From positions 1 through 42,622 of IMG/VR virus record IMGVR_UViG_3300033571_015040: a stretch of DNA of 42,622 bases. One strand, given 5' to 3'. The position numbers were made by a program, and so were the translations under genes. Below the pieces are notes generated by a model. The model was not told the DNA's origin. It searched no databases and was given only the letters and a program-made list of their open reading frames with translations. Of this stretch, positions 1,213 to 42,551 are shown in pieces. Position 1 is the first letter of the stretch; each line of letters begins with the position of its first letter. The DNA comes from a virus.

Positions 1213-1232
1213 GCCATCCCACCTATCCACCT

Positions 1233-1244: not shown

Positions 1245-1246
1245 GA

Positions 1247-2290: not shown

Positions 2291-2338
2291 GATGCGGATG
2301 CGTCTACCTGCCCGCTGAAAAGGCCTTTAGGCCTGCAT

Positions 2339-4962: not shown

Positions 4963-4973
4963 CTAGGTAGGTT
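4945..4973 (+). promoter_or_regulatory. Possible sigma-70 promoter for the DNA-metabolism operon
   Basis: TTGACG at 4945-4950 and TAGGTT at 4968-4973 are separated by 17 bp. The -10-like hexamer lies between the two CCTAGG palindromes, so a protein bound there would cover it. The -10 match is weak. The site is notable mainly for its overlap with the candidate operator. Confidence 0.3.
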
Positions 4974-4979
4974 CCTAGG
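4962..4979. promoter_or_regulatory. CCTAGG pair (candidate operator B)
   Basis: CCTAGGTAGGTTCCTAGG holds two CCTAGG palindromes 12 bp apart, nearly identical to the first 18 bp of array A. As RNA, the flanking bases extend it to a hairpin of GCCTAGG with CCTAGGC around a six-base loop. It lies 53 bp before the ATG of the ssDNA-binding protein gene. Confidence 0.6.
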
Positions 4980-4980
4980 C

Positions 4981-5029
4981 ATGCCCCGGATCTCTGCACT
5001 CCTGGGGCATTCCATCAACTCACCCGACA
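4981..5029 (+). promoter_or_regulatory. Hairpin plus TCACCCGACA module before the ssDNA-binding protein gene
   Basis: ATGCCCC (4981-4987) pairs perfectly with GGGGCAT (5004-5010). TCACCCGACA follows at 5020-5029, and the ATG is at 5032. No Shine-Dalgarno sequence is present. This is one of the clearest examples of the hairpin-motif-start arrangement. Confidence 0.68.
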
Positions 5030-5031
5030 GC

Positions 5032-5670
5032 ATGGCCACTGAGACACTGATCGCACCACCTGGCGAGGTTCTATTCGCCAATGTCCTAAAGCCCAAGCTC
5101 GTAAACCAGGGCAAGAAGAACGAAAAGCTCCAGTACGGGATCGTGCTGCTGCAATGCGACCCCGAGGCTGACGCCGCCGCCAAAGCTTTTATCGGCAGCC
5201 TGCACAAGGCATTTATGGAGAGGTTTGGCGGCAACGCCAAGTACGGAGCGAACGGCAAGCCCTGGAAACGGGAAACACTCACCAATGAGCACGGTGTTGA
5301 AGAACCTACGGGCTTGATCCGGGTCTCGTTTAACCGGGACACCGTGACTCGCAACGGGATCGAGTTGCCGGCACCGATGATTCAGGACAGTCGCGGCAAC
5401 CCTTGGCCAGGCAATGTGCCGATCGGCAATGGCAGCGTCTGCAAGATCCTTTACAGTCTCTATCTCTGGGACAACGACGACGGCGGCAAGGGTCTCAGCC
5501 TTAATCTATTGGGGGTGCGTGTCTTGACCCACGTGCCCTACAACGTCGGCACCGTGGCGCCCGATGCGTTCGGACCCCCCGAGGATGGCGTAGATGCCAC
5601 TCTTCTGGCTGAAGAGCACAGTGGCGATCTATTCGGTGGCCCCGCCAGTACCGAAGAGGTGCCCTGGTGA
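5032..5670 (+). CDS. ssDNA-binding protein, gp2.5 / DUF2815 type
   Basis: This 212-residue protein should coat single-stranded DNA during replication and recombination. The N-terminal IAPPGEVLFANVLKPK and the following beta-rich core resemble phage ssDNA-binding proteins of the gp2.5/DUF2815 kind. The C-terminal tail is acidic and ends in an aromatic residue (LLAEEHSGDLFGG then EEVPW), the arrangement used by T7 gp2.5 to contact its partners. The start at 5032 follows the TCACCCGACA motif; an upstream in-frame start at 4945 would add a poor leader running through the operator. It is first in an operon of overlapping genes and sits in the T7 gene 2.5 position after RNA polymerase. Confidence 0.82.
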   Translation: MATETLIAPPGEVLFANVLKPKLVNQGKKNEKLQYGIVLLQCDPEADAAAKAFIGSLHKAFMERFGGNAKYGANGKPWKRETLTNEHGVEEPTGLIRVSFNRDTVTRNGIELPAPMIQDSRGNPWPGNVPIGNGSVCKILYSLYLWDNDDGGKGLSLNLLGVRVLTHVPYNVGTVAPDAFGPPEDGVDATLLAEEHSGDLFGGPASTEEVPW

Positions 5671-6020
5671 TGGGCAGTAAGTCACGGGTTATTCAGTACC
5701 CTGAGCCCCGAATCTACTGGGCTTTTGAGGTAATTACTGCAAGCGTCTATCGCGTAGTCGTAGTTGCTGAAAGCGACCACTTCTTATGGCTTAAGCCCGT
5801 CAAGGAGTTTGACCGCAACGGCCAGCCGCACAGGCCCGTGCAAAAAAGGAAGGCCGGCCTGCCCACGTTTAACTCATTCCACGACGCCAAAGACGAGCTG
5901 ATGAATGTTTTGGGCCTGAAAGTTCGCGCCGCGAACAAACAAGCCGCGGCTTTGGCGTCTTTGTATCAACAGAGCTGTCGCATTCCCGATCCTGTCAGCG
6001 GCCGGGGAGTGTCACTTTGA
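5670..6020 (+). CDS. Hypothetical protein in DNA-metabolism operon
   Basis: This is a 116-residue protein; its ATG overlaps the previous stop (TGATG). The N-terminal half looks beta-rich (YWAFEVITASVYRVVVVAES), followed by a basic middle (RPVQKRKAG) and a helical C terminus with NKQAAALASLYQQ. I recognise no family. Its base composition is less GC-rich than the virion genes. Coupling to the ssDNA-binding protein suggests a role in DNA metabolism, but nothing in the sequence proves it. Confidence 0.6.
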   Translation: MGSKSRVIQYPEPRIYWAFEVITASVYRVVVVAESDHFLWLKPVKEFDRNGQPHRPVQKRKAGLPTFNSFHDAKDELMNVLGLKVRAANKQAAALASLYQQSCRIPDPVSGRGVSL

Positions 6021-6226
6021 CGCAAGAAATCAAGATCTCACGGAAATTCTCAGCCAAGGTCAACCTGGGCAACTACGAAAACGTGGAAATCGCTTGCGCG
6101 GCCGAAGCGATTGTGCCCGAAGAACAGATGGCCGCGCAAAGCGCTTTTCTCCGAGACTTCTGCCGCGATCAAGTGCGGCAGGAGGTCGAGGTCATTAAGC
6201 GTCGGAAGGGTGGCGCCAATGGCTAA
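6017..6226 (+). CDS. Small hypothetical protein, TTG start
   Basis: This 69-residue protein has a beta-rich start (KISRKFSAKVNLGNYENVEI) and a charged helical C terminus (RQEVEVIKRRKGG). The best start is TTG at 6017, whose bases overlap the previous TGA. The phrase 'KVNLGNYENVEI' recalls a short beta-strand module I have seen in unrelated phage hypothetical proteins, but I can attach no function to it. The overlap on both sides argues that it is translated. Confidence 0.55.
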   Translation: MTQEIKISRKFSAKVNLGNYENVEIACAAEAIVPEEQMAAQSAFLRDFCRDQVRQEVEVIKRRKGGANG

Positions 6227-6578
6227 ACCAGACGGATTAAAGCGATTCCGGCTCCTTCAATTCATTCCACATGGCCAGGCCACCCCGGCCTGGTATGGGC
6301 TGGCCTGGTACGACTGGCAGAGGAATGGACACTATGCGCTGCCTATCTTCTTGGTCTTGCCCTTTGGGGTTGCGCGTTGGCTCTGGGCTGGGCTGCGAAC
6401 AGGCAGCAAGGCGGTGGCCATCGATTCCAGGGTGGCCTACCTGGATGGGATACAGCAGGGGATCCGTATCGCCAGAAAGGATCCATCGCTGCTGCATAGG
6501 CCGTTCGCGGCGCGTGGCGGCGATCGTCTCACGATCATCAATGCCGACACCTACGACCAGCGAGGTGGCAAGCGATGA
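6219..6578 (+). CDS. Hypothetical protein with one hydrophobic segment
   Basis: This is a 119-residue protein starting at an ATG that overlaps the previous gene by eight bases. Residues about 39-58 (YALPIFLVLPFGVARWLWAG) are hydrophobic enough to cross or touch the membrane. The rest is charged. I recognise no family. It sits between the ssDNA-binding protein and nuclease genes, an unusual place for a membrane protein; it might anchor replication complexes, which is speculation. Confidence 0.5.
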   Translation: MAKPDGLKRFRLLQFIPHGQATPAWYGLAWYDWQRNGHYALPIFLVLPFGVARWLWAGLRTGSKAVAIDSRVAYLDGIQQGIRIARKDPSLLHRPFAARGGDRLTIINADTYDQRGGKR

Positions 6579-7042
6579 ACATTATGGCCATCGACCCCGG
6601 CCCTGAGGTGTCCGGGGTTGTGTGGCTAAGTCCTGAGCGCAGGATCATTGCTGCCGAAATCCAGGACAACAAGGAGATAGTCCGCACCCTAAGAGGTGGC
6701 CACACGGTCTACCCGTTTCCCCACGTAGCAATCGAGATGATTGCTTCCTACGGCATGCCCGTGGGAGCCGAGGTCTTCAATAGCTGCACGTGGATTGGTC
6801 GATTTGAGGAGGCCTATGTCCACTCGGATCTTATTGCTCGCTACTTCCGCAAGGACATCAAGCTGCATCTATGCGGCACCACCAAGGCCAAGGACGGCAA
6901 CGTCCGACAGGCATTGATCGATCTACTTGGTCCGCCTGGTGTCAAGAAAGCCCCCGGTCCTACCTATGGGATTAAGAGCCACCTATGGGCAGCGCTTGCC
7001 CTTGCCGTCTACGCCCAACACGTTCTCAACCAACCGAAATGA
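6575..7042 (+). CDS. RuvC / RNase H-like nuclease (putative Holliday junction resolvase)
   Basis: This is a 155-residue protein with the first acidic strand MAIDPGPEVSGVVW, a second acidic strand VAIEMIAS, and a terminal helix GIKSHLWAALALAVY. This order matches RuvC-like RNase H-fold nucleases found in phages. The last catalytic Asp of classic RuvC is not obvious; this subfamily often has His in the SHxWAALA helix. It occupies the place of T7 gene 3 endonuclease, after the ssDNA-binding protein, and likely resolves branched DNA before packaging. ATGs at 6575 and 6584 are both possible; the first overlaps the upstream stop. Confidence 0.72.
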   Translation: MNIMAIDPGPEVSGVVWLSPERRIIAAEIQDNKEIVRTLRGGHTVYPFPHVAIEMIASYGMPVGAEVFNSCTWIGRFEEAYVHSDLIARYFRKDIKLHLCGTTKAKDGNVRQALIDLLGPPGVKKAPGPTYGIKSHLWAALALAVYAQHVLNQPK

Positions 7043-7212
7043 TCACGCCCCCTGGAGCCGTTGAAGCCGCTGAAATGGTGCGGCGCCGCACCCGACTGAA
7101 AGAGCAGTTGCAGGCTGTTCTGGCCAACATGAAGCGCGATGCGGTGGTCGCTGCCATCGTTGATGACCGGCTACATCCGGCCGTAAGGGTGGACTGGACA
7201 GAGGTCAACTGA
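7039..7212 (+). CDS. Small hypothetical protein
   Basis: This 57-residue protein lies between two overlapped genes (ATGA at 7039-7042 and TGATG at 7210-7214). The middle is a charged helix (MVRRRTRLKEQLQAVLANM) and the end is acidic. No family is recognised. The tight overlaps are the main evidence that it is real. Confidence 0.5.
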   Translation: MITPPGAVEAAEMVRRRTRLKEQLQAVLANMKRDAVVAAIVDDRLHPAVRVDWTEVN

Positions 7213-7829
7213 TGCGCTGCCCAAACTGCCAATCGACCAGTCACATCTGCACCGAAACCAAGCGGTGCACGGTGGTCAATACCGAGGATTCGTACAAGCG
7301 CAAACGGATCTGCCAAGAGTGTGGCCATCAGTGGACGACCACGGAGCGAATCGACAAATGGGACAACGACCAACGGCAGTGGACCGGCCACGCTGAGCCC
7401 GAGCTGCCCAAGGTCCCTGGCCCCGCCGTTCGCGCAAAGGAGCCACGGCAGGGCAAGCCAGCCGCTTCACGGTTCCATCCCATCACCCTTGAGCAGGTGG
7501 CCGGCACACTCTTGGGGATCCCCCCGGACGTGTGCGAACTGCTCCTCGAGTGGTGGAACAACAGCCGGCGCTCAAGGCACGGCGCCTCTGCGGCCTGGAC
7601 CGAAAAGGCCTTCACCATGTCCGCGGAACGGGTGAAGAAGCTGGCCCACTGGCAGCAAGTGGCGCTGGTCACCGCCGGCGTCGAGCACGGCTGGCAGGCC
7701 CTGAACCCCAACTACAGCAGAGACCTGCTGGCCAACCCACCACGGCAAAGCGGCTTTCAGCCGCAGAGCCAGGGCTTGGCCGGGGCCCTGGCGATCATTC
7801 AAGGTGGAGGGAACCGTGGATCCGCCTGA
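7212..7829 (+). CDS. NrdR-like zinc-ribbon protein, possibly replication-associated
   Basis: This 205-residue protein begins with a four-cysteine zinc ribbon: CPNC at residues 3-6 and CQEC at about 35-38, followed by GHQWTTTERID. The layout closely follows the zinc ribbon at the start of the bacterial repressor NrdR (CPxC ... CxxC ... FTTxE), but the NrdR ATP-cone is absent. The C-terminal part contains a helical module ending VEHGWQALNPNY. Similar 'GW..L.P' endings occur in phage replisome-organiser proteins, so a DNA-binding replication role is a reasonable inference. No primase or helicase motif is present. Confidence 0.58.
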   Translation: MRCPNCQSTSHICTETKRCTVVNTEDSYKRKRICQECGHQWTTTERIDKWDNDQRQWTGHAEPELPKVPGPAVRAKEPRQGKPAASRFHPITLEQVAGTLLGIPPDVCELLLEWWNNSRRSRHGASAAWTEKAFTMSAERVKKLAHWQQVALVTAGVEHGWQALNPNYSRDLLANPPRQSGFQPQSQGLAGALAIIQGGGNRGSA

Positions 7830-8403
7830 TCTGGCCGGCATTGGCAGCGCGCCGGGGCAGCAGCCGATGCCGGCCATGCTCCAGCCCGATGTCTTCTTCA
7901 CGGGGTGCGAGATCCTGTTCTCGCATCTTCGGCTGAAAGAAGCTGACCGCTGGAGCTCGGCGGTGGCCCTGATCAAGCTGGCCAGCTTCACCGACGCTTT
8001 CCCAGAGGTGAGCGATCGGCAGTTCCTCTGGTGTTGCGAGCGGTGGGTGCAATCCGCCACCGGCGAAAGGTTCCGCACCGTGCCGCCCTGGGTTGAGCTT
8101 GTGGCGCCGTTGTATCGGCAGGAGAACGGTCTGGCCAACCGCTCCTGGGGATTCAGGCCCGATCTGCCGCCGTTCCTGCGGCCGACACCGGAGCAGTTGC
8201 AGTTGATGCCAGCGCAAACGCAGTCTCGCCTGAGCAGCAGCGACCCGGCTCATTCCGACTTTGAAGTACCTGAAACGTGGAAGCGCTGGACCGCCAAGGA
8301 CGGCAACCAGATGCAGTTCGAGCCATCACCCGACACACCCCAGCTGCGCAGCTATGACCAAACCCCTCAGCCCAGATACTCGGGCACTGCTGGCAGTCAT
8401 TGA
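7804..8403 (+). CDS. Hypothetical protein, helical, start uncertain
   Basis: This protein has up to 199 residues. The GTG at 7804 overlaps the previous gene by 26 bases, while a second GTG at 7816 has a better spaced GGAGGG in front (7806-7811). The core is helical with aromatic residues (DRQFLWCCERWVQ) followed by TVPPWVELVAPLYRQENG and RSWGFRPDLP. The C terminus is low in order and Gln/Ser-rich, and the TCACCCGACACA motif for the next gene lies within it. No family is recognised; co-location suggests DNA metabolism. Confidence 0.55.
   Translation: MEGTVDPPDLAGIGSAPGQQPMPAMLQPDVFFTGCEILFSHLRLKEADRWSSAVALIKLASFTDAFPEVSDRQFLWCCERWVQSATGERFRTVPPWVELVAPLYRQENGLANRSWGFRPDLPPFLRPTPEQLQLMPAQTQSRLSSSDPAHSDFEVPETWKRWTAKDGNQMQFEPSPDTPQLRSYDQTPQPRYSGTAGSH
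8326..8337 (+). promoter_or_regulatory. TCACCCGACACA leader motif before the gene at 8354
   Basis: TCACCCGACACA lies inside the end of the preceding coding sequence, 28 bases before the ATG at 8354. It is the last good early-type motif before the virion genes. No hairpin was noticed directly upstream. Confidence 0.55.
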
Positions 8404-8557
8404 GCCGGCCAAAAATCCGGGCAGTTTATTCATTCCTGCTCCACAGACTCCCCGCGTTCAACTTGCGCAAGTGCTACGTGCTTTGGCGCTTCTTAGGCCC
8501 ATCGAGCCACTGACACCAGACCGACTATTCCGCATCGCAGACGAGCTTGATCCATGA
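8354..8557 (+). CDS. Small hypothetical protein
   Basis: This 67-residue protein starts at an ATG located after a TCACCCGACACA motif and overlaps the previous gene by 50 bases. It is hydrophobic-helical and Pro-rich (RVQLAQVLRALALLRPIEPL), ending RLFRIADELDP. Its TGA overlaps the next ATG (ATGA at 8554-8557). No family is recognised. Confidence 0.5.
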   Translation: MTKPLSPDTRALLAVIEPAKNPGSLFIPAPQTPRVQLAQVLRALALLRPIEPLTPDRLFRIADELDP

Positions 8558-8745
8558 ACATCCCCACCAACCTTCAGCGCTTCGCCGACTTTATGGCCAC
8601 CCACTCTTCCCCCGAGGGTTGCATAGCTGGGCGCCGTTACATGGTGCCGTGCATCAGCCATCCCAAGCTGTGGCCCCTGGTGTTCGCCAATGCCCCGGCC
8701 ACGGGCTGGCGTGGGATGACGACGGGAAGCAGGTGCGGCTGGTGA
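8554..8745 (+). CDS. Small hypothetical protein
   Basis: This is a 63-residue protein beginning MNIPTNLQRFADFMATH, with two cysteines in the middle and one near the end (CIAG, CISHP, CGW). The ATG overlaps the previous stop. The alternative frame in the same stretch has a skewed His/Pro composition and looks like a shadow. No family is recognised. Confidence 0.5.
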   Translation: MNIPTNLQRFADFMATHSSPEGCIAGRRYMVPCISHPKLWPLVFANAPATGWRGMTTGSRCGW

Positions 8746-8790
8746 CACCCACTTAGTCCCCATGAATTCTTCACTCGAATTTCGCCTACA

Positions 8791-9531
8791 ATGAAACTGC
8801 TGATTGATACCGAGGGCTTCCTCGTCCCGGCCGCCAAGTCTGCCGAATACGACATCGAGTGGCAGCCGGGTGATTGGCAGAAACTCTGCCGTCATGGCGA
8901 AGCCCTGGCTTATTTCCAGGAGGCCGTGGTGGACGTGCTGGCCCAGCACCCTGGCCACCAGCCCGTCCTGGCCATGGGTGATCGAACCACCTACCGGGCC
9001 GGCATCTTCCCCGCCTACAAGGCCAACCGGAAGAAGGAGTCCAAGGTGGCCGGCTGGCCCGCCTTGGTGGCCAGCGTCGAGCAGCTGGCCCTCAGCAGCG
9101 GCTGGGAGATAGCCCGCCTGGCCAACGTGGAGGCCGACGACGTGCTGGGCATCCTGGCCGGCCCCGACGACGTGATCGTGTCCATCGACAAAGATCTGTT
9201 GACGGTGCCAGGCCATCACTACAGGGCTGGAACGCTGGTGGACCAGTCGCTTCTCGCTGCGAACCTGGCTTTCTTCTCTCAGGCCCTTATCGGCGATCGC
9301 TCTGACCACTACCCCGGCTGCCCTGGCGTCGGCGAAAAGGGCGCCGAAAAGTTGCTGGCCGGCCTCCAAACCGAAGCCGAAATGTGGACAGCTGTTGTTG
9401 CCGCCTATCAGAAGGCTTGCCTCACCCCCCAGGCGGCCCTGGTGCAGGCCCGCTGCGCCCGCATCCTGCGGCCCGGTGAATACGACCACGACCGGCAGCA
9501 ACCAATCCTCTGGCAGCCTCCGGTAATCTGA
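8791..9531 (+). CDS. 5'-3' exonuclease, T7 gp6 / FEN type
   Basis: This 246-residue enzyme (T7 gp6 is about 300) should remove RNA primers, degrade DNA ends and supply nucleotides. FEN-family signatures are visible: LIDTEG at the start, YKANRKK near residue 74, EADDVLG near 113-119, SIDKDLLT near 131-138, and GDRSDHYPGCPGVGEKGAEK near 168-187. These carry the metal-binding acids and the helix-hairpin-helix. The gene order matches T7, where gene 6 precedes the structural genes. It is separated from upstream genes by a 45-bp gap with no clear Shine-Dalgarno sequence. Confidence 0.9.
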   Translation: MKLLIDTEGFLVPAAKSAEYDIEWQPGDWQKLCRHGEALAYFQEAVVDVLAQHPGHQPVLAMGDRTTYRAGIFPAYKANRKKESKVAGWPALVASVEQLALSSGWEIARLANVEADDVLGILAGPDDVIVSIDKDLLTVPGHHYRAGTLVDQSLLAANLAFFSQALIGDRSDHYPGCPGVGEKGAEKLLAGLQTEAEMWTAVVAAYQKACLTPQAALVQARCARILRPGEYDHDRQQPILWQPPVI

Positions 9532-9553
9532 GAGCGATAAGTGCAGCCCTGCA

Positions 9554-9736
9554 GTGCTTACACCGCTCGTCTCCGAAGCCTTGCTCAAGCGTCTGCAGGA
9601 AACATTCCCTGCCGACATTGTTGGGATGGCCTCCTATCCCTCGGAACGGATCCATCAAACGATCGGGGAACAGCGCGTCCTTCAGGTACTGCAGGCATGG
9701 CATAACGACCACGATCCGTTCCGGGAGGTGCGGTGA
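9554..9736 (+). CDS. Small hypothetical protein upstream of gp7.3-like genes
   Basis: This is a 60-residue protein with a GTG start. It contains a helix VSEALLKRLQETF and a Tyr/His-containing middle. Its stop overlaps the next ATG (TGATG at 9734-9738). No family is recognised. Small genes of this kind are common between gene 6 and gene 8 of T7 relatives. Confidence 0.45.
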   Translation: MLTPLVSEALLKRLQETFPADIVGMASYPSERIHQTIGEQRVLQVLQAWHNDHDPFREVR

Positions 9737-10119
9737 TGTGCGGTGGCGGAGCCCCACGGTCCACGATCGTCCAGCCCGATTACGGCGCCTACAACCGGAT
9801 GGCTGATGCGCAGCTGCAAACCATGCAGATGGCGCAGTCGCCTGCTGTCATGGCTGCTCAGCAGGGGCTCCAGGCCGCCGCCCTTCAGCAGCAGCAGGTT
9901 TTCTCCAGCTTGGCGGCACGCCGGACTGCAGAGGCCAGCGACACCTCGGCCGCCGCAACTCGGCTTGCCGCGTTGATCGGGCCGCCCCTCCCCGACAAGA
10001 CGGCCCGGGCCCCGGTGCTGGCCTCCAACAGGGCGGGCATGTCCAGGCCAACAGGCCGGAAGGGCCTGCGGATTGATCTACAACCAACCGCCACCAGCGG
10101 ACTCAACATCGGAGGTTGA
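9736..10119 (+). CDS. gp7.3-like virion/tail protein, copy 1
   Basis: This is a 127-residue protein starting MCGGGAP, with a Gln/Ala-rich helical middle and a C terminus GRKGLRIDLQP ... GLNIGG. T7 gp7.3 (about 99 residues), encoded immediately before portal, likewise ends in a basic KKSL stretch followed by Gly-Gly-Gly-Ile-Asn-Ile. The match in end motif and location supports a gp7.3-like tail-associated protein needed for adsorption or tail assembly. The next gene is a paralogue with the same MCGG start. The start ATG follows GGGAGG and overlaps the preceding stop. Confidence 0.7.
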   Translation: MCGGGAPRSTIVQPDYGAYNRMADAQLQTMQMAQSPAVMAAQQGLQAAALQQQQVFSSLAARRTAEASDTSAAATRLAALIGPPLPDKTARAPVLASNRAGMSRPTGRKGLRIDLQPTATSGLNIGG

Positions 10120-10121
10120 CC

Positions 10122-10496
10122 ATGTGCGGAGGACGGACACGGGCACCGAAGGTGGCGCAGCAATCGCCGCCTGACTACAGCGCCCAGATGCAACAGCAGC
10201 AGCAGGCGCAGGCCCAGATGCAACAGCAAAATGCCGCCCTGGTGCAGCAGCTGCAGGAGCAGGCCAGCGCCATGGCGGCTGAAACTGCCAAGCGATCGGC
10301 TGAGCTGGCAGCTCCTCAGCAGACCGTCACCAATGCCAACCCTTACGCCGTCACCACCGCACAAGGCACGGCCGGCTCTGCCCAGGAACAGACCACAGCG
10401 CCGACCGCCCCCCGCAAGAAGAGCAAGGCGAGCCTCCAGATCAACAGCGCAGACATCAGCTTGCCTGGCGTCGGCATCAACATCGGGGTGGGCTGA
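10122..10496 (+). CDS. gp7.3-like virion/tail protein, copy 2
   Basis: This is a 124-residue protein with the start MCGGRTRAPK, a low-complexity Gln-rich stretch near residues 23-45 encoded by CAG/CAA runs, and the ending APRKKSKASLQI ... GVGINIGVG. That ending is even closer to T7 gp7.3 than copy 1. GGAGG precedes the ATG by six bases. The gene lies between copy 1 and portal, with a TGATG overlap to the portal gene. A tandem duplication followed by divergence is the simplest explanation. Confidence 0.72.
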   Translation: MCGGRTRAPKVAQQSPPDYSAQMQQQQQAQAQMQQQNAALVQQLQEQASAMAAETAKRSAELAAPQQTVTNANPYAVTTAQGTAGSAQEQTTAPTAPRKKSKASLQINSADISLPGVGINIGVG

Positions 10497-12172
10497 TGGA
10501 GCGCGGAGAAGGCGAGGTCGTGGTTTCGCCCGAAAGCCAGGGGCTGCAACGGGGCACGGCGCAGCGCCGGTACAACCAGCTGCGGGGCTATCGGGATTCG
10601 TGGCTGGAGCGGGCCCGTCGCTCAGCGACGTTGACGCTGCCGTACTTGATTCCGCCCAGCGACGACGTTCTGCCGGAGACAGCTGAGGAGCAGCCGCACC
10701 CGTGGAGTGGTATCGGCGCCCAGGGCGTCAACAACCTGGCGGCCAGGCTGCTGCTGGCCCTGCTGCCACCCACTGGTGGGTTTTTCCGGCTGACCGGCGA
10801 CGAGCTTGCGTCAGCCATGGCGGAGGCCGATCTGGTTCAGCGTGGTGCTACCGAGACCGAGATTGCATCCCTGAAGCAGGAGATCGAGCGCGGCCTGGCC
10901 ACCTTGGAGCGGGCGGTCGCCCGTGAGATCGAGACGTGCAACGACCGGGTGGCCCTGTTTGAGGCGCTGATGCACCTGATCGTTGGCGGTGCGGTGCTGC
11001 TCTACCGCCGGCCCAAGGCGATGAAGGTCTTCCACCTGAACAAGCACGTCCTGCTGCGTGATCCGATGGGCTCCCCTGTTGAGGGGGTGACATGTGAAAC
11101 GTACCTCTACGCCTCCTTGGACAAAAGGTTGAAGGCGGTGCTTGACGAAGTGGACCGGGAGGCTGGCCGCTGGCAGGAGGACAACGCCAGGCGCGACTCA
11201 CGGCAGATCAAGGTCTTCACCCACATCGAGTGGAGCGGTGACGGGGTCGCCTGGTATCAGGAGATCGGCAACGCCGTGGTGCCGGAGTCCAAAGGCAGCG
11301 CGCCCGCTGACGCCAGCCCGTGGATCCCGTTGCGCCTGTACCGGATGGACGGGGACAGCTACGGCCCTGGCTATGTCGAGTGGTGCGCCATGGCCGACCT
11401 GCTGAGCAACGATGCGCTCAACAAGGCGGTCACCGAGGGCAGCATGCAGGCCGCCCGTCAGCTGGTGGGTCGCACATCATCGGCCATCACCAGCAAGGAG
11501 GTGTTTGCCAAGGCCCCCAACGGGTCGGTGATCGATGCGCGGCCGGATGATTTTTTCCCGATCAGCACGGCCGACGTGCGCGATCTGGGCGTGGCCTACC
11601 AGGCGATGACCAGGCTGGAGCAACGGCTGGGCCGGATCTTCCTGTTGCCCGACATCCGCGATTCGGAGCGCACCACGGCCGAGGAGGTGAAGCTGCAGAT
11701 CCGGCAGATCGAGCAGATGCTGGGCTCCATCTATTCCATCCTCACCGTCGAGTTTCAGTACCCCTACATCAAGCGGGTGCTGTCGGTCCTGACCAAGGCG
11801 AACAGGCTGCCAGAGCTCGAGAACGTGGAGCCGGTGATCTCCGTGGGCCTCGCCGCCTTGGGCCGCCAGTCCGACGCCGAGAGGCTGGCAGCGTTCGCCA
11901 TGCAAGGCGGGCAGGCGCTGCCACAGCAGTTTGGCCAGCTGGTTGATTCAGCTGCCTGGCTGCGGGAGTTCTGCACCGCCATGGGTGTGAACCCATTGCT
12001 GGTCAAGAGCGACGAGCGGATCCAGGAGGAGCAGGCTGCCGCGGCCAAAGCGCAGCAGCAGCAGCAGCTGATCCAGGCCGGCATGGGCGATCCCCAGAAG
12101 CTAGGCAACGCCGCCATGGCGGTGCAGCAGATGTCCAGCCCACAACCCGACACCGAACCCCAACCCCAATGA
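10496..12172 (+). CDS. Portal (head-tail connector) protein, gp8-like
   Basis: This 558-residue protein (T7 gp8 is 536) would form the dodecameric DNA entry ring and nucleate capsid assembly. The N terminus has the typical podovirus portal start (QRRYNQLRGYRDSWLERA, then TLPYLIPP) and later GAQGVNNLAARLLLALLPP. Mid-protein LFEALMHLIVGGAVLLY and ERTTAEEVKLQIRQIEQMLG are also portal-like. The C terminus is Gln-rich. It is translationally coupled upstream (TGATG) and overlaps the scaffold start downstream (ATGA). Confidence 0.95.
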   Translation: MERGEGEVVVSPESQGLQRGTAQRRYNQLRGYRDSWLERARRSATLTLPYLIPPSDDVLPETAEEQPHPWSGIGAQGVNNLAARLLLALLPPTGGFFRLTGDELASAMAEADLVQRGATETEIASLKQEIERGLATLERAVAREIETCNDRVALFEALMHLIVGGAVLLYRRPKAMKVFHLNKHVLLRDPMGSPVEGVTCETYLYASLDKRLKAVLDEVDREAGRWQEDNARRDSRQIKVFTHIEWSGDGVAWYQEIGNAVVPESKGSAPADASPWIPLRLYRMDGDSYGPGYVEWCAMADLLSNDALNKAVTEGSMQAARQLVGRTSSAITSKEVFAKAPNGSVIDARPDDFFPISTADVRDLGVAYQAMTRLEQRLGRIFLLPDIRDSERTTAEEVKLQIRQIEQMLGSIYSILTVEFQYPYIKRVLSVLTKANRLPELENVEPVISVGLAALGRQSDAERLAAFAMQGGQALPQQFGQLVDSAAWLREFCTAMGVNPLLVKSDERIQEEQAAAAKAQQQQQLIQAGMGDPQKLGNAAMAVQQMSSPQPDTEPQPQ

Positions 12173-35223: not shown

Positions 35224-36972
35224 GCCCAGGGCCAGGGCCTCAATGCCGCGGCCTGTCTCTTCAAAGATTGCGTCGATGGTGGCCTGCAGCACCTCCTGGT
35301 CCCGCTGGGTCTTGACCTTCTGCTGATCCTGCGCGGCCGATTCCTCAAACCACGCGCAACCGATCGCCAGGGCGTCCAGCCGATCAATCCACGACAGGCA
35401 GCCACGGTCCGTGGTGACCCTGCTGATCTGGAACATCAAGCTCCGTTGGTGGCCCGTCTCCTGGTCCTTCTCCGCCTCCTCCCATTCGCTGCGAATCCTG
35501 GCCTCGTTGACCACCAGCCGGTGCTGCTGCACCAGGGGAGCCACCGTGTTGACGATCCGCACCTCCTTCTGCGCCGTGCTCCATGGCACCTCGTCAGCAT
35601 CAAGGATCGAGCAGTTCGGGTAGATCCGCTGCATGTGGGGCTGCAGCACCTTGTTGAACATGCCGCCGCCGTAGTTGGGCTCCGGGATCACGGTTTGAAC
35701 GCTCCACTGCTTCGCCTTGTGGCACAGGGCCTCCAGCGTTGCGTCCTCAAAGCCGGCCTGGGTGCCGCCCCAATCGAGGAGGAACATATTCCCGTTCAGC
35801 TCCGCCAGCACCACCCAGCCCATCTCGTCGCGGCCACGGGCTGACGGATCGATCGCCATGGCGACACGCCACACCTCCGTTCGCGGCAGCCAGTTGCCCA
35901 GGGCCACAGGGCGGTGATAGAAGCGATCGCTGCCAAGGCCCACGCATTGCAGGCCCTGGATGCGCTGCTCCTGGCTGGAGCTCCACGACACCAGCTCCGG
36001 CAAGGCCTTGCCATCCAGCCCCATCACAATCAGATCCCCCAGGCGGCAGGGGAACTTCTCCGCGGTGCTCAGCCGGCAGTTGAGCATGTACTGCAGCTGC
36101 ACCCACGCCTTGGTGCCCCGCAGCTCTTTCTCCTCGAGCACCTCCTCCGGGAAGCGCTCCGGGTCGGTCGGCATCCCCACCAGCCACGGGTTCTCCTGCA
36201 CCTCCGCCGCCAGCTGCGGGCACAGGTGCCCCTCGTAGCAATCCCAGGCGTTCTCGTCGGTCGGGTCGGGGTAGCGCGCAGGGAAGTACCGGATCTTGTA
36301 GTTCCGGTTCCTGGACAGCTCCAGGTACAGGCTCGTCTCGATGTGCGGTGTGCCCAACACCCGGATGGCCCGCTTCATCTGGCCCGGCGCCGGCACCTTC
36401 AGGATGGCCACCAGTTCGTTGAACGCCGACGCCAGCCGCTGCTGCTTGAGCGGCGTGATGCTGTTGTTCTCGTTCTCCACGTCATCCGGGAGAATGAAAG
36501 TGGCGCGGCTGCCCGTCAGGCCAGGGCTGAGGATGCCCGACACCCGACAGCTGGGAGCCTGGTCGATCGAGCAGGGCCCCACGTCCCAGGCGATCACCGA
36601 TTGCCGCTGATCCCGCCGCGGTCGCAACGGCTCGAATAGATCCAAGCTCTGGATGGTTTTCTGCATCCAGTCGCTCACCTCCTGCGGCTTTTTGGCCGTG
36701 GCACCAGTCAGCAGCACCTTCTCGTTCACCGGATCCAGGCACAGCCGGTGCAGCGCCCTGTTGCCGGCGATGTACGACTTCGAGGCTTCCCGGAACGCGG
36801 CGGTGATCGTGAAGCCACCCTCGTCCTCGTTCATCCAGTCGGCCATCAGCAACTGCATCCGGGTCGGCTCGTCCTCTGGGCCGATCAACCCCGTTTCCCG
36901 CATGACGTACAGCAGGAAGTACGGGAACGGCTCAAGCTCCGGCGGCAGGATGCTGTTGGGATAGCTGCTCAT
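35161..36972 (-). CDS. Terminase large subunit, gp19-like
   Basis: This 603-residue protein (T7 gp19 is 586) packages DNA into the head. A deviant Walker A is seen as AAFREASKSYIAG (residues 58-70) and Walker B as ATFILPDDVENENN (157-170). The nuclease half shows AIDPSARGRDEMGW (Asp375), VIPEPNYGGG (Glu431) and RLDALAIG (Asp533), the three acidic positions expected for RNase H-like terminase nucleases. It is read on the minus strand, opposite to the virion genes. Its ATG overlaps the stop of the small gene upstream (36969-36972), so the two are coupled. Confidence 0.95.
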   Translation of the reverse strand: MSSYPNSILPPELEPFPYFLLYVMRETGLIGPEDEPTRMQLLMADWMNEDEGGFTITAAFREASKSYIAGNRALHRLCLDPVNEKVLLTGATAKKPQEVSDWMQKTIQSLDLFEPLRPRRDQRQSVIAWDVGPCSIDQAPSCRVSGILSPGLTGSRATFILPDDVENENNSITPLKQQRLASAFNELVAILKVPAPGQMKRAIRVLGTPHIETSLYLELSRNRNYKIRYFPARYPDPTDENAWDCYEGHLCPQLAAEVQENPWLVGMPTDPERFPEEVLEEKELRGTKAWVQLQYMLNCRLSTAEKFPCRLGDLIVMGLDGKALPELVSWSSSQEQRIQGLQCVGLGSDRFYHRPVALGNWLPRTEVWRVAMAIDPSARGRDEMGWVVLAELNGNMFLLDWGGTQAGFEDATLEALCHKAKQWSVQTVIPEPNYGGGMFNKVLQPHMQRIYPNCSILDADEVPWSTAQKEVRIVNTVAPLVQQHRLVVNEARIRSEWEEAEKDQETGHQRSLMFQISRVTTDRGCLSWIDRLDALAIGCAWFEESAAQDQQKVKTQRDQEVLQATIDAIFEETGRGIEALALGLPLNGFMGGRAVGGVSRKGR

Positions 36973-37226: not shown

Positions 37227-37270
37227 GGCCCCCCTGCTGCAGCAGAGAGGCCCCCGAGGCTCACCCGACA
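37227..37270. promoter_or_regulatory. Perfect GC hairpin plus orphan TCACCCGACA motif
   Basis: GGCCCCCCTGCTG (37227-37239) and CAGCAGAGAGGCC (37240-37252) form a fully paired stem, allowing G-T pairs on the minus-strand RNA. On the plus strand TCACCCGACA follows at 37261-37270, but no plus-strand gene follows it. On the minus strand the hairpin sits a few bases upstream of the ATG at 37220. It may be a relict early-gene module or a hairpin serving the minus-strand operon. Confidence 0.6.
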
Positions 37271-38963: not shown

Positions 38964-38990
38964 CTGCAGCAATGCAGCCATCACCCGACA
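38964..38990 (+). promoter_or_regulatory. Hairpin plus TCACCCGACA, first early module
   Basis: CTGCA (38964-38968) and TGCAG (38973-38977) close a GCAA tetraloop. TCACCCGACA follows at 38981-38990. A GTG at 39004 lies at a suitable distance and opens the same frame as the gene at 39055, so this may be an alternative start or a duplicated leader. Confidence 0.58.
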
Positions 38991-38999
38991 GGTACTGCA

Positions 39000-39047
39000 G
39001 CCGGTGGCAGGTCAAGGCACCGGCGGCCCGTTCTCCATCACCCGACA
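39000..39047 (+). promoter_or_regulatory. Hairpin plus TCACCCGACA before the gene at 39055
   Basis: GCCGGTG (39000-39006) pairs perfectly with CACCGGC (39018-39024). TCACCCGACA follows at 39038-39047, and the ATG is at 39055. The pair of modules at 38964 and 39000 looks like a local duplication of the arrangement. Confidence 0.65.
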
Positions 39048-39054
39048 TCGACCC

Positions 39055-39228
39055 ATGACCCAGACGATCCCTGACGACAAGCTCCACCGGCTGTTTCTGA
39101 GCGACTTCGAAGTGCGGGAGTTGATCAACGCCCTTGACCATTACGCGACCGGCCCTAGAGGCAAGTTCCTTGCTGGCCGTCGCTTGTTGGCCCTCCGCTG
39201 GCGACTGGAGCACAGCCAGGCCACCTAA
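39055..39228 (+). CDS. Small early hypothetical protein
   Basis: This is a 57-residue protein (starting MTQTIPDDKLHRLFLSDFEV) with a helical, charged composition and the C terminus LAGRRLLALRWRLEHSQAT. Its start is set by the TCACCCGACA motif seven bases upstream. A GTG at 39004 could add 17 residues. No family is recognised. Its place at the head of the early arm suggests a host take-over role, as for many T7 early genes. Confidence 0.5.
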   Translation: MTQTIPDDKLHRLFLSDFEVRELINALDHYATGPRGKFLAGRRLLALRWRLEHSQAT

Positions 39229-39238
39229 CCCCATCACC

Positions 39239-39288
39239 AGGGCCGGCCCGTGCTGGCCCTTCCTTCCCGTTCCCGATCACCCGACACA
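39239..39288 (+). promoter_or_regulatory. Hairpin plus TCACCCGACACA before the gene at 39294
   Basis: AGGGCC (39239-39244) pairs with GGCCCT (39255-39260), followed by a TTCCTTCCC tract. TCACCCGACACA is at 39277-39288 and the ATG at 39294. The hairpin and pyrimidine tract could also act as a weak terminator after the previous gene. Confidence 0.65.
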
Positions 39289-39293
39289 GACCC

Positions 39294-39602
39294 ATGAACC
39301 GAACCCATCCCATCGAGGCCGCCGCGGTTGGCAGCGTTGCCCTCGTCCGCCTGGCCCGTGCCGTGCTGGTGCCCTGCGTGGCTCTGGTGCTGACCGTTGC
39401 CGGCTGGCAGCCGTCAGGCACTGCAGCCGCGGCACCTATGGCACTGGCAGCACCGGCACCAGTGGCACGCGACTGGGCCGGCCGGCCGCTCGACTCCCTG
39501 ACCGTGCGGGAGCTGCGCCTACAGGCCCGCGCTGCTGGTCACCGTGCGTTGGCTCGCAGCGGCCGCCGGGCTGATCTGCTGGCTGCCCTGGCTCTGGCCT
39601 GA
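39294..39602 (+). CDS. Membrane-anchored protein with SAP/Rho-N-like end
   Basis: This is a 102-residue protein. The N-terminal part has a hydrophobic helix (ARAVLVPCVALVLTVAGW). After a Pro/Ala linker the C-terminal about 35 residues (LDSLTVRELRLQARAAG, then ALARSGRRADLLAALA) fit the two-helix SAP or Rho-N type nucleic-acid-binding module. Together they suggest a protein that tethers DNA or RNA to the membrane, or one with a cleaved signal sequence. The start follows TCACCCGACACA. Confidence 0.6.
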   Translation: MNRTHPIEAAAVGSVALVRLARAVLVPCVALVLTVAGWQPSGTAAAAPMALAAPAPVARDWAGRPLDSLTVRELRLQARAAGHRALARSGRRADLLAALALA

Positions 39603-39616
39603 TCTCTGCCCACATA

Positions 39617-39628
39617 TCACCCGACACC
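39617..39628 (+). promoter_or_regulatory. TCACCCGACACC leader motif before the gene at 39639
   Basis: A full-length motif lies 22 bases before the ATG at 39639, starting about 15 bases after the end of the previous gene. I see no strong hairpin directly upstream. Confidence 0.65.
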
Positions 39629-39638
39629 ACCCAAACCG

Positions 39639-39908
39639 ATGTCCCGCACCACGACGGCAACACCACGAGAGCAGGCCCTGGAGCTGCTCCAGACGATCGA
39701 TCCTCACGGCGCCTACACCGACTTGGCCAGCTGCGACGACGACCGCGAACCCTGCCGCCTGCATGAAGCGATCCGAGCGGCCGCAACGGTCGTTGAAGGC
39801 GCCATACCTGCCGGCAACGTGCCGCCGGAGCTGGCTGAGCTGTTCTCAGCGCTTGCCCTGTGGGCATGGGATCAGGAGCACGGCCGATACATCACCGGCG
39901 ACGCCTGA
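39639..39908 (+). CDS. Small acidic early protein
   Basis: This 89-residue protein (starting MSRTTTATPREQALELLQTI) is helical and mildly acidic, with CDDDREPC in the middle and LAELFSALALWAWDQEHG near the end. No family is recognised. Its leader has the early motif. It is separated from the sigma factor gene by 72 bp that carry the CCTAGG array. Confidence 0.55.
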   Translation: MSRTTTATPREQALELLQTIDPHGAYTDLASCDDDREPCRLHEAIRAAATVVEGAIPAGNVPPELAELFSALALWAWDQEHGRYITGDA

Positions 39909-39922
39909 TACCGCACTACCCG

Positions 39923-39951
39923 CCTAGGTGGCTCCCTAGTAGGCCCCTAGG
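39923..39951. promoter_or_regulatory. CCTAGG-type triple array (candidate operator C)
   Basis: CCTAGG at 39923, CCTAGT at 39935 and CCTAGG at 39946 are spaced 12 and 11 bp apart. As RNA, GCCTAGG (39922-39928) can pair with CCTAGGC (39946-39952). The array ends eight bases before the TCACCCGACACA motif of the sigma factor gene, so it is well placed to control that gene. Confidence 0.6.
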
Positions 39952-39958
39952 CACCCAC

Positions 39959-39970
39959 TCACCCGACACA
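39959..39970 (+). promoter_or_regulatory. TCACCCGACACA leader motif before the sigma factor gene
   Basis: The motif lies 22 bases before the ATG at 39981, directly after the CCTAGG array, which itself can form the upstream hairpin. No Shine-Dalgarno sequence is evident. Confidence 0.68.
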
Positions 39971-39980
39971 CCCTAATCCG

Positions 39981-40571
39981 ATGACCGCCACTACCCAGAC
40001 CGCCGCACTGGCAACACGCGACCGCATCGCCCGCCGTTACCTGCCGGAGGCTGACGCCTTGGCCGGCGCAATGGCCCGCAGGCTGCGAGGCCTGGCAGAG
40101 CTCGACGATCTGCAGCAGGAGGCACGCATCGCCCTGTTGCAGGCTGCCGGCCGTGTCACGCCTGGCACCGATGCGGTGCGCTATCTACGGTGCTCCATCG
40201 CCGGGGCATTGCGCCGTTATGTGCGGGATCGGCTCCGCCTGGTGCGCGTGTCTCGCCGTGCCCATGAGGCCGGCGGGTATCCCCTCGGCCATGCCTCCCT
40301 TGATGCCCCGGTGACCGAAGGCGGCCCCGCCTTCCTTGACCTACTGGAAGCACCAGAGCAGGAGGACGACACTCCCTGCGATGCCCTAGCGGCTGAGGTG
40401 GCGCAGATGGCGGAACGCTTGCCGGCCGCCGATGCAGCAGCGCTCCGCCTGCTGGTGATGGAGGGGCGGAGCATCCGCGAGGCCGCGGCCATCCTCGGAA
40501 CGTCGCCCATGACGGCAAGCCGGCGGCGGGATCGCGCCGTCGATGCCATCCGCTACGCGCTGGGGGCCTGA
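39981..40571 (+). CDS. Phage-encoded sigma-70-family factor
   Basis: This is a 196-residue protein with the two domains of small sigma factors. Region 2 spans about residues 10-85: RRYLPEADALAGAMARRL, then ELDDLQQEARIALLQAAGR (core polymerase contact), and RRYVRDRLRLVRVSRRAHE (promoter recognition). Region 4 is near residues 140-195: LPAADAAALRLLVMEGRS, then IREAAAILGTSPMTASRRR. It should bind host RNA polymerase and redirect it, presumably to phage early promoters or to silence host genes. Finding it beside a T7-type polymerase is unusual. It is led by the early motif and the CCTAGG array. Confidence 0.85.
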   Translation: MTATTQTAALATRDRIARRYLPEADALAGAMARRLRGLAELDDLQQEARIALLQAAGRVTPGTDAVRYLRCSIAGALRRYVRDRLRLVRVSRRAHEAGGYPLGHASLDAPVTEGGPAFLDLLEAPEQEDDTPCDALAAEVAQMAERLPAADAAALRLLVMEGRSIREAAAILGTSPMTASRRRDRAVDAIRYALGA

Positions 40572-40574
40572 GCG

Positions 40575-40871
40575 ATGACCACCACCACCACGGACCCGGT
40601 GTGGCAGCTGCATGCCGAGGACCGGCCGACCTGGTGGCGATCGCTCGCCCCGAACCCGTGGCCCAGTAGCCGCCGCGCATACCCCTGCCCGTTCGGCTGC
40701 AACGGCACCGGCCATCTTCCGCACTTCCGGCACATCGCCGATGGCGTGTGCTTCGGATGCAAGGGCCTCGGCTGGCTCTATGGCCGCAACGAGGTGGAGG
40801 CGGCCGCCGCGGCCCCGCCAGACCAGGCCCGCCGATGGCGACGGGAGGGGCGCCGCATCATCCCCGCTTGA
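40575..40871 (+). CDS. Small CXXC zinc-binding protein
   Basis: This 98-residue protein contains YPCPFGCNGTGH ... GVCFGCKGLGW, two CxxxC/CxxC pairs with glycine repeats like the zinc modules of DnaJ or of some primase zinc fingers. The rest is Trp/Arg-rich at the start and charged at the end. It lies four bases after the sigma factor gene and is probably co-expressed. A role assisting a nucleic-acid or sigma complex is possible but not supported by a family match. Confidence 0.6.
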   Translation: MTTTTTDPVWQLHAEDRPTWWRSLAPNPWPSSRRAYPCPFGCNGTGHLPHFRHIADGVCFGCKGLGWLYGRNEVEAAAAAPPDQARRWRREGRRIIPA

Positions 40872-40882
40872 CGACAGCACGG

Positions 40883-40932
40883 AGGCCCCGCGGGGCTTCC
40901 CTGCTGCCCTCTGGCAGCACTCACCCGACACC
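40883..40932 (+). promoter_or_regulatory. Two hairpins plus TCACCCGACACC before ardC
   Basis: AGGCCCCG/CGGGGCTT (40883-40898) and GCTGCC-ctct-GGCAGC (40903-40918) form tandem hairpins. TCACCCGACACC follows at 40921-40932, and the ATG is at 40940. The first hairpin might act as a terminator after the zinc protein gene, although no T run follows. Confidence 0.68.
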
Positions 40933-40939
40933 CCAGACC

Positions 40940-41905
40940 ATGACCACCACCACCAAGCCCCGCACCAGGGGCAAGAAGGCCTACGACGGGCCCACACCAG
41001 AGGAGAAGCTGTGCGCCGATCTGGTGGCCCTGCTGGAGCAGGGAACCGCACCATGGCGCCGCCAGTGGCAAGGGCAAGCCGGCCGCCATCGCAACCTGAT
41101 GACCGGCGCCGAATACCGCGGGGGTAACCCGCTGCTCCTGGAGCTGGGAGGCCTAATGCGCGGCCACAGCCTGCCCCTATGGCTGGGCGGAGCGCAGGCC
41201 AAGGCTGAGGGCTGGTATCCCCGCAAGGGATGCACCGCGGCCCGGATCCTGCGGCCCCAGCTGAACAAGCGCGAGGAGGAGGGAACCAACCCGGACACCG
41301 GCAACCCTGAAACCGTGCTGAAGGCCTGGACCTCCTACAAGGTGGTCCCGGTGTTCAATGCCGCCGACCTGGTGGGCGCCACCGAGGAGCACGCCGCCGC
41401 CCTGGCGGAGCGGATCGCCGCGGCCATCGGCCAGACCGAAACCAAGGAACCGGCGGCCAGGCTGGAGGCTGCTGAGGCGGTCCTGGAAGCCTGGGAGGTA
41501 GCGACCGTCTACGGCGGGGCCCAGCCCTGCTACCTGGCCGGCCGGGATCAGATCTGCATGCCCAACCCTGAGGCGTTCGAATCCCGCGAGGCCTTCGCCT
41601 CGACGTGGGCCCACGAACAGATCCACAGCACCGGACACAAAGACCGGTTATCCCGTTGTTTGAGCGGCACCTTCGGCAGCAAGGCCTACGCACGTGAGGA
41701 GCTGGTGGCCGAGCTTGGCGCGGTGCTGCTCTGCCAGCGGCTGGAGATCGGCACCCAGTTCGAGAACCACGCCGCCTATCTGGCGAACTGGATCAAGGTT
41801 TTGCAGGAAGGCCCTCGAACCCTGTTCAAGGTTCTGAGCGAGGCAAGGCATGCGGCCGATCTGATCGCACCGGAGGCCCCGGCCGCCGACTCGGGGGAGG
41901 CCTGA
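40940..41905 (+). CDS. ardC: ArdC-type antirestriction protein (ssDNA-binding plus zincin domain)
   Basis: This 321-residue protein matches ArdC in size (about 300). The N-terminal half has the ssDNA-binding ArdC-N/DUF1738 pattern (LVALLEQGTAPWRRQWQ, EYRGGNPLLLEL, LNKREEEG). The C-terminal half is a metallopeptidase-like domain with HEQIH at residues 225-229 and an acidic partner helix (REELVAELGAVLLCQ, Glu253-Glu258). ArdC proteins protect incoming plasmid or phage DNA against restriction. The start follows the early motif. Two small genes with a copied 3' junction follow. Confidence 0.88.
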   Translation: MTTTTKPRTRGKKAYDGPTPEEKLCADLVALLEQGTAPWRRQWQGQAGRHRNLMTGAEYRGGNPLLLELGGLMRGHSLPLWLGGAQAKAEGWYPRKGCTAARILRPQLNKREEEGTNPDTGNPETVLKAWTSYKVVPVFNAADLVGATEEHAAALAERIAAAIGQTETKEPAARLEAAEAVLEAWEVATVYGGAQPCYLAGRDQICMPNPEAFESREAFASTWAHEQIHSTGHKDRLSRCLSGTFGSKAYAREELVAELGAVLLCQRLEIGTQFENHAAYLANWIKVLQEGPRTLFKVLSEARHAADLIAPEAPAADSGEA

Positions 41906-41911
41906 ACAATG
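41876..41911 (+). repeat. 36-bp gene-junction repeat, copy 1
   Basis: Bases 41876-41911 match 42092-42127 at 32 of 36 positions. Each copy contains the last codons of a gene ending Gly-Glu-Ala, a GGGGGAGG Shine-Dalgarno-like block, the stop, and the start codon of the next gene. It appears to be a duplicated stop-start cassette. Confidence 0.85.
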
Positions 41912-42121
41912 CAGCGACCCCTCTACGACCGCGCAACCCAGCCGAGCACCGGCAGGAACTGGGCCTGGACATGCCTAGGCGGCTGGCGCGAATGGGACAC
42001 CAGGCGTGCTGAATGGGTGCCCTCGATGCCGCCGCCACCCGGCGCGGAGTTGAGGCAGTCCCCAGCCAGCCTGGCCCAGTTTGGAGCGGTCGCCCCGACC
42101 GCCGACGCGGGGGAGGCCTGA
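41909..42121 (+). CDS. Small hypothetical protein after ardC
   Basis: This is a 70-residue protein (starting MQRPLYDRATQPSTGRNWAW) with several Trp residues and Pro runs and an ending TADAGEA that copies the end of ArdC (AADSGEA). A GGGGGAGG lies eight bases before its ATG. No family is recognised. It is probably cotranslated with ardC. Confidence 0.5.
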   Translation: MQRPLYDRATQPSTGRNWAWTCLGGWREWDTRRAEWVPSMPPPPGAELRQSPASLAQFGAVAPTADAGEA

Positions 42122-42127
42122 ACCGTG
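42092..42127 (+). repeat. 36-bp gene-junction repeat, copy 2
   Basis: This is the second copy of the junction at 41876-41911, differing at four positions including the start codon (GTG instead of ATG). It supplies the Shine-Dalgarno block and start for the acidic micro-protein. Confidence 0.85.
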
Positions 42128-42262
42128 GACAGCGAGGAGATGGCACAAGAGGACGCCCTCTTCCCCTGGCTGGCCTGTGACTGCATGGCGGACCCAGGGC
42201 CGGAGGAGTGGCCCGGCGGGGGATGGGGAGACGAGGAGGACGAGGAAGACCCCGACGCCTGA
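42125..42262 (+). CDS. Acidic 45-residue protein, possible DNA mimic
   Basis: This GTG-initiated gene is too short for most ORF cut-offs. The start is set by the copied junction with GGGGGAGG. The protein has no Lys or Arg and is very acidic: it starts VDSEEMAQEDALFPW and ends WGDEEDEEDPDA. Small acidic phage proteins such as T7 Ocr (117 residues) mimic DNA and block restriction enzymes or host nucleases. Its place two genes after ardC makes a defence-inhibitor role plausible, but its size and lack of homology leave this open. Confidence 0.55.
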   Translation: MDSEEMAQEDALFPWLACDCMADPGPEEWPGGGWGDEEDEEDPDA

Positions 42263-42272
42263 CCGCTGCACC

Positions 42273-42336
42273 GTGGCCCTGGGGGAACCCGCGGCCACCC
42301 TGCAGCGCTCACCGCTGCACCTGTTCACCCGACACC
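42273..42336 (+). promoter_or_regulatory. Hairpin plus TCACCCGACACC before the last small gene
   Basis: GTGGCC (42273-42278) pairs with GGCCAC (42293-42298), with a nested GGG/CCC. TCACCCGACACC is at 42325-42336, and the ATG is at 42348. Confidence 0.65.
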
Positions 42337-42347
42337 AGAGAAATCCC

Positions 42348-42551
42348 ATGGAGAACGAACTACAGCCCCTGGAATTGGCCCATGCGCAATACATCGCAGT
42401 CAGAGGCGGGAACCTCACACTTTTCCGCAGGGGCCCCAACGAGTGGACCGCTACCGGCTGGGAGGACGGACTCCCTGTAGCCCGAACCCCAGTCACAGAA
42501 GCCGAAGTCGCGGCCATGTTGCGCCGGTTCCCTGGCTCGCTGGTGCGCTGA
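42348..42551 (+). CDS. Small hypothetical protein at the contig end
   Basis: This is a 67-residue protein (starting MENELQPLELAHAQYIAVRG) with a beta-rich middle (NLTLFRRGPNEWTATGW) and a C-terminal helix VTEAEVAAMLRRFPGSL. The start follows TCACCCGACACC. The stop overlaps the ATG of the next gene at the circle junction. No family is recognised. Confidence 0.6.
   Translation: MENELQPLELAHAQYIAVRGGNLTLFRRGPNEWTATGWEDGLPVARTPVTEAEVAAMLRRFPGSLVR

Follow-up and report, generated by a model that had tools for sequence, protein, structure and literature searches.

Two described elements are close analogues of the one considered here. The Start-Associated Sequences (SAS) of cluster K mycobacteriophages are 13 bp long (GGGATAGGAGCCC), have the Shine-Dalgarno (SD) core AGGAG and lie 3-7 nt before the start codon; their companion sequence varies between subclusters, and the function of SAS is unknown (PMC3203893). 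The other is the promoter read by the RNA polymerase (RNAP) of the T7-like cyanophage Syn5, ATTGGGCACCCGTAA (PMC3950665). A T7-like RNAP is combined with MarR and integrase genes in phage LUZ100 (PMC10134795), and also in the viral genome analyzed here, IMG/VR record IMGVR_UViG_3300033571_015040 (42,622 nt, analyzed in full and called the window). The window carries a repeated element, TCACCCGAC(A), that the initial annotation had taken for a separate expression code of early genes without known counterpart, the latter a claim that does not stand beside SAS and the Syn5 promoter. Our analysis suggests that the element is probably a promoter for the T7-like RNAP of the phage itself (2566-4926, plus strand, 786 aa; PF00940 at 3e-51, profile against T7 RNAP structures 4e-85), giving near-leaderless early mRNAs.

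TCACCCGAC was found 12 times on the plus strand of the window and not once on the minus strand. The expected number is 0.44 and 100 shuffles gave at most 2, clearly indicating that the motif is not equally frequent in shuffled sequence. All 12 coordinates of the initial annotation were exact, and the tenth-base A that it had reported is present in 11 of 12 copies (594-603, TCACCCGACT, has a T). In ten cases, again as annotated, an ATG follows 12-28 nt from the first base of the motif. These copies are located at 594-603 (ATG 608, offset 14), 1233-1242 before the integrase gene (ATG 1247, offset 14), 5020-5029 before the gene for a single-stranded DNA-binding protein (SSB; ATG 5032, offset 12), 8326-8335 within the 3' end of the open reading frame (ORF) 7804-8403 (ATG 8354, offset 28), 39038-39047 (ATG 39055, offset 17), 39277-39286 (ATG 39294, offset 17), 39617-39626 (ATG 39639, offset 22), 39959-39968 before a sigma-factor gene and with CCTAGG repeats on its 5' side (ATG 39981, offset 22), 40921-40930 before an antirestriction gene (ATG 40940, offset 19), and 42325-42334 (ATG 42348, offset 23). 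The copy at 37261-37270 adjoins the terminase gene, is directed away from it, and has neither a gene behind it nor an ATG offset. The copy at 38981-38990, the first of a conserved tandem pair, has no adjacent ATG either. A GTG does stand at offset 23 (39004), as the initial annotation remarked, but it is probably not a real start; ATG 39055, behind the 39038 copy, is the more likely start.

Genes with the motif lack SD sites, as the initial annotation had noted. The mean energy of the anti-SD duplex in the last 20 nt was -0.5 kcal/mol for motif genes versus -6.8 kcal/mol for 24 others (Mann-Whitney p = 1.2e-4), and non-motif genes mostly have an SD site. Placement before ATG and mutual exclusion with SD sites would also be expected of a signal that acts in the mRNA, that is, of a SAS-like element in the leader to which a phage protein or the ribosome binds and which replaces the SD site. 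The C/A-rich context of the motif, which extends into the first codons, the C/A signals upstream of the starts of cyanobacterial non-SD genes (PMC5397173) and the similar layout of SAS/ESAS in phages (PMC3203893) also favor such a translation signal. We regard it as the main competitor of the promoter interpretation, although a rather unlikely one. The distance between motif and start codon, which begins at 0 nt, is unfit for base-pairing with rRNA, and the copy without a gene also argues against a role in translation.

The latter copy is not peculiar to the window. In every motif class examined among related phages (see below), a hairpin and then the phage's own class motif lie on the opposite strand directly 5' of the terminase start, without a conserved ORF. 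At such a site a translation signal is not expected. Syn5 reportedly has two established promoters for its RNAP. One promoter is placed 6 bp past the Syn5 terminase gene, toward the right end, and CACCCG is common to TCACCCGAC and the Syn5 promoter. Degenerate, class-specific copies were also found before the capsid-assembly gene, in the place of T7 phi9: CAACCCGACA in the window (12143-12152, plus strand, in the 3' end of the portal gene; ATG 12169), TCACCCGA in the related loci L019-L023, and AACAACCACC in S-SRP02, the closest named phage, which infects freshwater Synechococcus, with Synechococcus sp. SR-C1 as an isolated host strain, and has an RNAP 46% identical to that of the window. Most copies do precede early genes, as the initial annotation had it, but the capsid-assembly copy means that the motif is not strictly confined to them. 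A one-mismatch sequence, ACACCCGACA, is present on the plus strand at 36540-36549, antisense within the terminase gene.

GC hairpins had been described upstream of many copies, which applies in part. Folding of the 60 nt upstream gave a mean z of -1.15 at motif sites versus -0.13 in random stretches. Values of z < -1.5 were obtained at 4 of 12 sites (5020, 39959, 40921 and 42325), the hairpin being absent or weak at several of the others. The hairpin just 5' of the gene-less copy (37227-37256, plus strand) has no strong z; it displays compensatory changes across ten relatives, with 4 of 9 pairs changed on both sides and a covariation score above that of all 500 shuffles. A double hairpin (GGAGGCCCCGCGGGGCTTCC, CTGCTGCCCTCTGGCAGCA; 40881-40919, plus strand) is located 5' of the 40921 copy. 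Hairpins before several copies, one of them with covariation, would suit an RNA-processing site made of a hairpin and a cleavage site. This is very improbable in our view, because several copies have a weak hairpin or none, and because the relative L092 keeps the hairpin although its motif is replaced.

The motif is retained in close relatives. Phages with RNAPs 87-88% identical to that of the window have it in the same slots; the slot before the integrase gene is kept in L013, L014, L015, L017, L022 and L093, and the copy at 8326 is kept in L015. In the window and in nine viral relatives, TCACCCGAC is strand-pure and oriented with the genes, and the single minus-strand copy in L015 stands before a minus-strand start. 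It also accompanies RNAPs 62% (L093) and 52% (L019-L023) identical to that of the window. Among 51 pooled sites of this class, information is limited to the 9-10 bp of TCACCCGAC(A), the flanks contributing next to nothing. ATG offsets range from 9 to 57. At an offset of 9 the ATG directly abuts the motif (TCACCCGAC-ATG, as in L019 and L022), and start codons never overlap it. Offsets of 9-28 account for 83% of 59 sites, versus 27% for random positions.

A host-wide element was considered and rejected, since the cyanobacterial metagenome-assembled genome (MAG) G010 showed no enrichment outside two phage-like contigs (17 matches versus 17 for a reversed-pattern control). A scan of viral contigs for the motif plus ATG gave only scattered single matches. 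Contig 32 of G010 (L237, 4.6 kb), binned in this Synechococcaceae MAG, has seven TCACCCGAC copies along with MarR and integrase fragments, and is a phage-derived early region. Tandem expansion of the motif (ACACCCG units), as if by slippage, was seen in L237 and at positions 3199-3243 of L015.

In about 40 related phages, the slot between the hairpin and the early-gene ATG holds other C/A-rich words, which form about eight classes. More distant relatives have AACAACCACC (S-SRP02 and kin), GACCAACCACC, AACCACCAACC, CACCTACC, ACCACACC, ACACCACC or CACGAC(A/C)A. Classes were called from motif counts, independently of the RNAP, with k-mer counts and visual inspection as the means of assignment. 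Their distribution follows the RNAP tree, TCACCCGAC going with RNAPs 52-100% identical to that of the window, a correlation that was drawn from often partial contigs and that, following a tree, is not independent evidence. In phages of the AACAACC class (L009, L028-L044), the SSB gene is without the class motif; a conserved palindrome, e.g. CTCCACATGTGG-CGCACAA, stands before its ATG in the region of about 60-90 nt between RNAP and SSB.

Natural swaps separate the motif from most of the genes around it. L092 resembles the window in its antirestriction gene (89% identical), sigma factor (84%) and SSB (69%), with an RNAP that is only 40% identical. The window's double hairpin is kept 5' of the antirestriction gene of L092, but the slot is filled by ACCTACC repeats; between double hairpin and ATG stands TCACCCGACACCCCAGACC in the window and ACCTACCACCTACCACCTACCACCA in L092. 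Similarly, L043 and L029 have SSB, exonuclease and ORF p29 96-98% alike, RNAPs 52% alike, and different motifs. The two swaps indicate that the determinant is not the downstream gene, the hairpin, sigma, SSB, exonuclease or p29. That the class tracks phage lineage although shared downstream genes are unchanged further disfavors a translation signal.

As readers of the motif, SSB, exonuclease, ORF p29, terminase, p13 and the antirestriction protein were rejected, because pairs 90-98% identical go with different motifs. For terminase the figure is 92%; the helix-turn-helix (HTH) protein p13 is 90% identical with a different motif, and only 28-32% identical with the same one. These exclusions leave RNAP, integrase, MarR, NrdR and scaffold, among which the RNAP is plausibly favored on biochemical grounds. 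Like the motif statistics, the conservation, the turnover of classes with RNAP clade and the gene-less copy, the swaps are directly established.

The initial annotation had offered three options for its expression code, namely a non-SD translation signal, an RNA-processing site, or a promoter read with the phage sigma factor. Our data support an expression signal that is linked to genes and specific to each class. Of the three options "promoter" fits best, though probably with a different reader. A sigma-70 family gene (39981-40571, plus strand) is indeed among the motif genes. However, scanned loci other than the window, L014 and L092 gave no sigma gene. The motif persists in L015, L017, L019 and L022, where the stretches examined contain no sigma match, and the motif of L092 differs in spite of its similar sigma factor. 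The sigma factor was rejected as reader on these grounds; a promoter of this kind is hardly credible, and it is much more likely that the T7-like RNAP reads the motif. The sigma-70 family factor at 39981-40571 sits in a T7-like phage that already encodes its own RNAP.

The presence of integrase and MarR genes next to many short, asymmetric, transcription-oriented sites recalls the stoperators of L5-type phages (PMC9283540), and the motif might be a repressor or elongation-block site used in lysogeny. We consider this improbable. The recognition helix of MarR is almost unchanged between phages of different motif classes, for which reason MarR was discarded as reader, and the p13 HTH is only 32% alike in the window and L014 despite their having the same motif. 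Tight abutment on ATG and missing SD sites would also be left unexplained.

The specificity loop of the window RNAP aligns to T7 residues 727-760 without gaps. At T7 749-758, TA[VI]SG-x-RRW-[AV] is common to 11 of 11 RNAPs of the TCACCCGAC class, even at 52% overall identity, and the AACAACC phages have the loop [TS]L-x-[HK]G-x-R-[RK]-WQ in common. L064, with an RNAP 76% identical to that of L043 and another motif, has R instead of the Q of AACAACC phages at the position of T7 Q758.

Several observations weigh against a phage RNAP promoter. At matched overall identity of 50-60%, loop identity is 57% within classes and 45% between them, which is a modest effect, and the area under the curve against motif class is 0.91 for RNAP and 0.84-0.99 for other genes, so that the RNAP is not singled out. 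With 9-10 bp the motif is short beside the promoters of Syn5 (15 bp), LUZ100 (17 bp) and T7 (over 20), it does not display the long consensus to about -17 that is usual in known phage-RNAP promoters, and it is mostly followed by a C. The majority of copies precede the RNAP gene, in a region that T7 expresses from host promoters. No motif accompanies terminase and other minus-strand genes in the window, which leaves their transcription unexplained, and some of the other classes consist of low-complexity units in tandem, which typical promoters do not. The promoter assignment itself derives from comparison. On account of these misfits, a SAS-type translation model keeps a real share. The two models agree in that the motif is a lineage-specific, start-linked code.

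In the phage RNAP promoter model, which we prefer, the host RNA polymerase would first transcribe the phage RNAP gene. The start of this gene has a GGAGG and no motif copy, and a sigma-70-like promoter (TTTTCA-17-TAAAAT; 2349-2377, plus strand) lies just 5' of it as the sole match in 900-5100, where 0.4 are expected by chance. SD site, missing motif and lone promoter match together suggest the order host RNAP, then phage RNAP. The early region at 36.9-42.6 kb yielded no sigma-70-like promoter. The phage RNAP would then initiate at each motif copy, at or just past the motif end, the conserved tenth-base A being the likeliest +1. Separate early mRNAs would result, with a leader that is absent or very short and G-poor. 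Such leaderless or near-leaderless mRNAs would have no need of an SD site and would leave the spacing free. The gene-less terminase copy would be directed to the early-gene end, like the Syn5 right-end promoter and T7 phiOR, and the weak copy at the capsid-assembly gene would be placed like T7 phi9. Upstream hairpins may be accessory, insulating upstream transcripts or stabilizing their 3' ends. From comparison we infer recognition by the RNAP, the start site, and leaderless mRNA and translation.

The ends of the record are identical over 87 bp, and it therefore looks like a complete, circularly closed genome. The 37-42.6 kb region appears to run on into 1-5 kb, as circular closure implies. 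The window appears to be the complete genome of a T7-like (Autographiviridae) freshwater cyanophage, and a megablast query of its positions 1-12000 against named phages gave no match. Encoded proteins include an integrase, a MarR-type regulator, a T7 gp2.5-like SSB and T7-like head and tail proteins, and the antirestriction gene with ATG 40940 is ArdC-type. Its integrase suggests that the phage is temperate. Between integrase and RNAP, positions 2406-2450 are similar to a tRNA-Leu (TAA anticodon) in its 5' part and might be an attachment site; ARAGORN did not identify a complete tRNA there. Repeated CCTAGG pairs (e.g. CCTAGGTAGGTTCCTAGG) stand 5' of selected genes, at 4965-4980, 840-870 and 39922-39952, and in many relatives between RNAP and SSB. 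They could be operators or transcript-end structures.

It is possible, if short of probable, that these phages form a probably temperate T7-like cyanophage clade in which a minimal 9-10 bp RNAP promoter abuts the start codon of nearly every early gene, the early proteome is translated from leaderless mRNAs, at least eight mutually distinct promoter specificities have evolved, and genes are exchanged without their promoters. We did not find an earlier description of the motif in S-SRP02 or its relatives in the open-access papers searched. If the promoter interpretation is true, the phage would be unusual in that each early gene has a minimal promoter to itself and an mRNA leader that is short or missing. 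The few known T7-like specificities would be joined by a natural series of about eight classes of RNAP-promoter pairs from public contigs, DNA reading by the specificity loop could be tested on natural variants, and orthogonal parts for cyanobacteria might be obtained. Should the motif act in translation, SAS-like elements, described in 2011 and of open function ever since, would have a second and independent example.

Among known systems, the SAS are also short asymmetric repeats before the starts of non-structural genes, in one orientation and often with an inverted repeat upstream. The motif differs from them in its sequence, its lack of an SD core, the distance of mostly 0-19 nt from motif end to ATG, the conserved gene-less copy and its occurrence in a T7-like phage. 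Cluster A mycobacteriophage stoperators are likewise numerous, asymmetric, transcription-oriented and located in short intergenic gaps, but they are bound by a repressor and are not tied to start codons or missing SD sites (PMC9283540). With the T7 class II/III, phiOR and LUZ100 promoters (PMC10134795), the motif has in common that it is repeated, strand-oriented and associated with a single-subunit phage RNAP, and that it has a CAC core; counterparts of phi9 and phiOR are in place in the window. The T7 and LUZ100 consensus sequences span 17-23 bp and in T7 begin downstream of the RNAP gene, whereas the 9-10 bp motif of the window is mostly upstream of this gene and directly at start codons. 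The Syn5 promoter is likewise that of a T7-like cyanophage RNAP, contains CACCCG, and has one of its two copies just past terminase toward the right end. It is unlike the motif in its length of 15 bp, its mere two copies and their location away from start codons, and the GGG upstream of its CACCCG is not conserved at the window motif.

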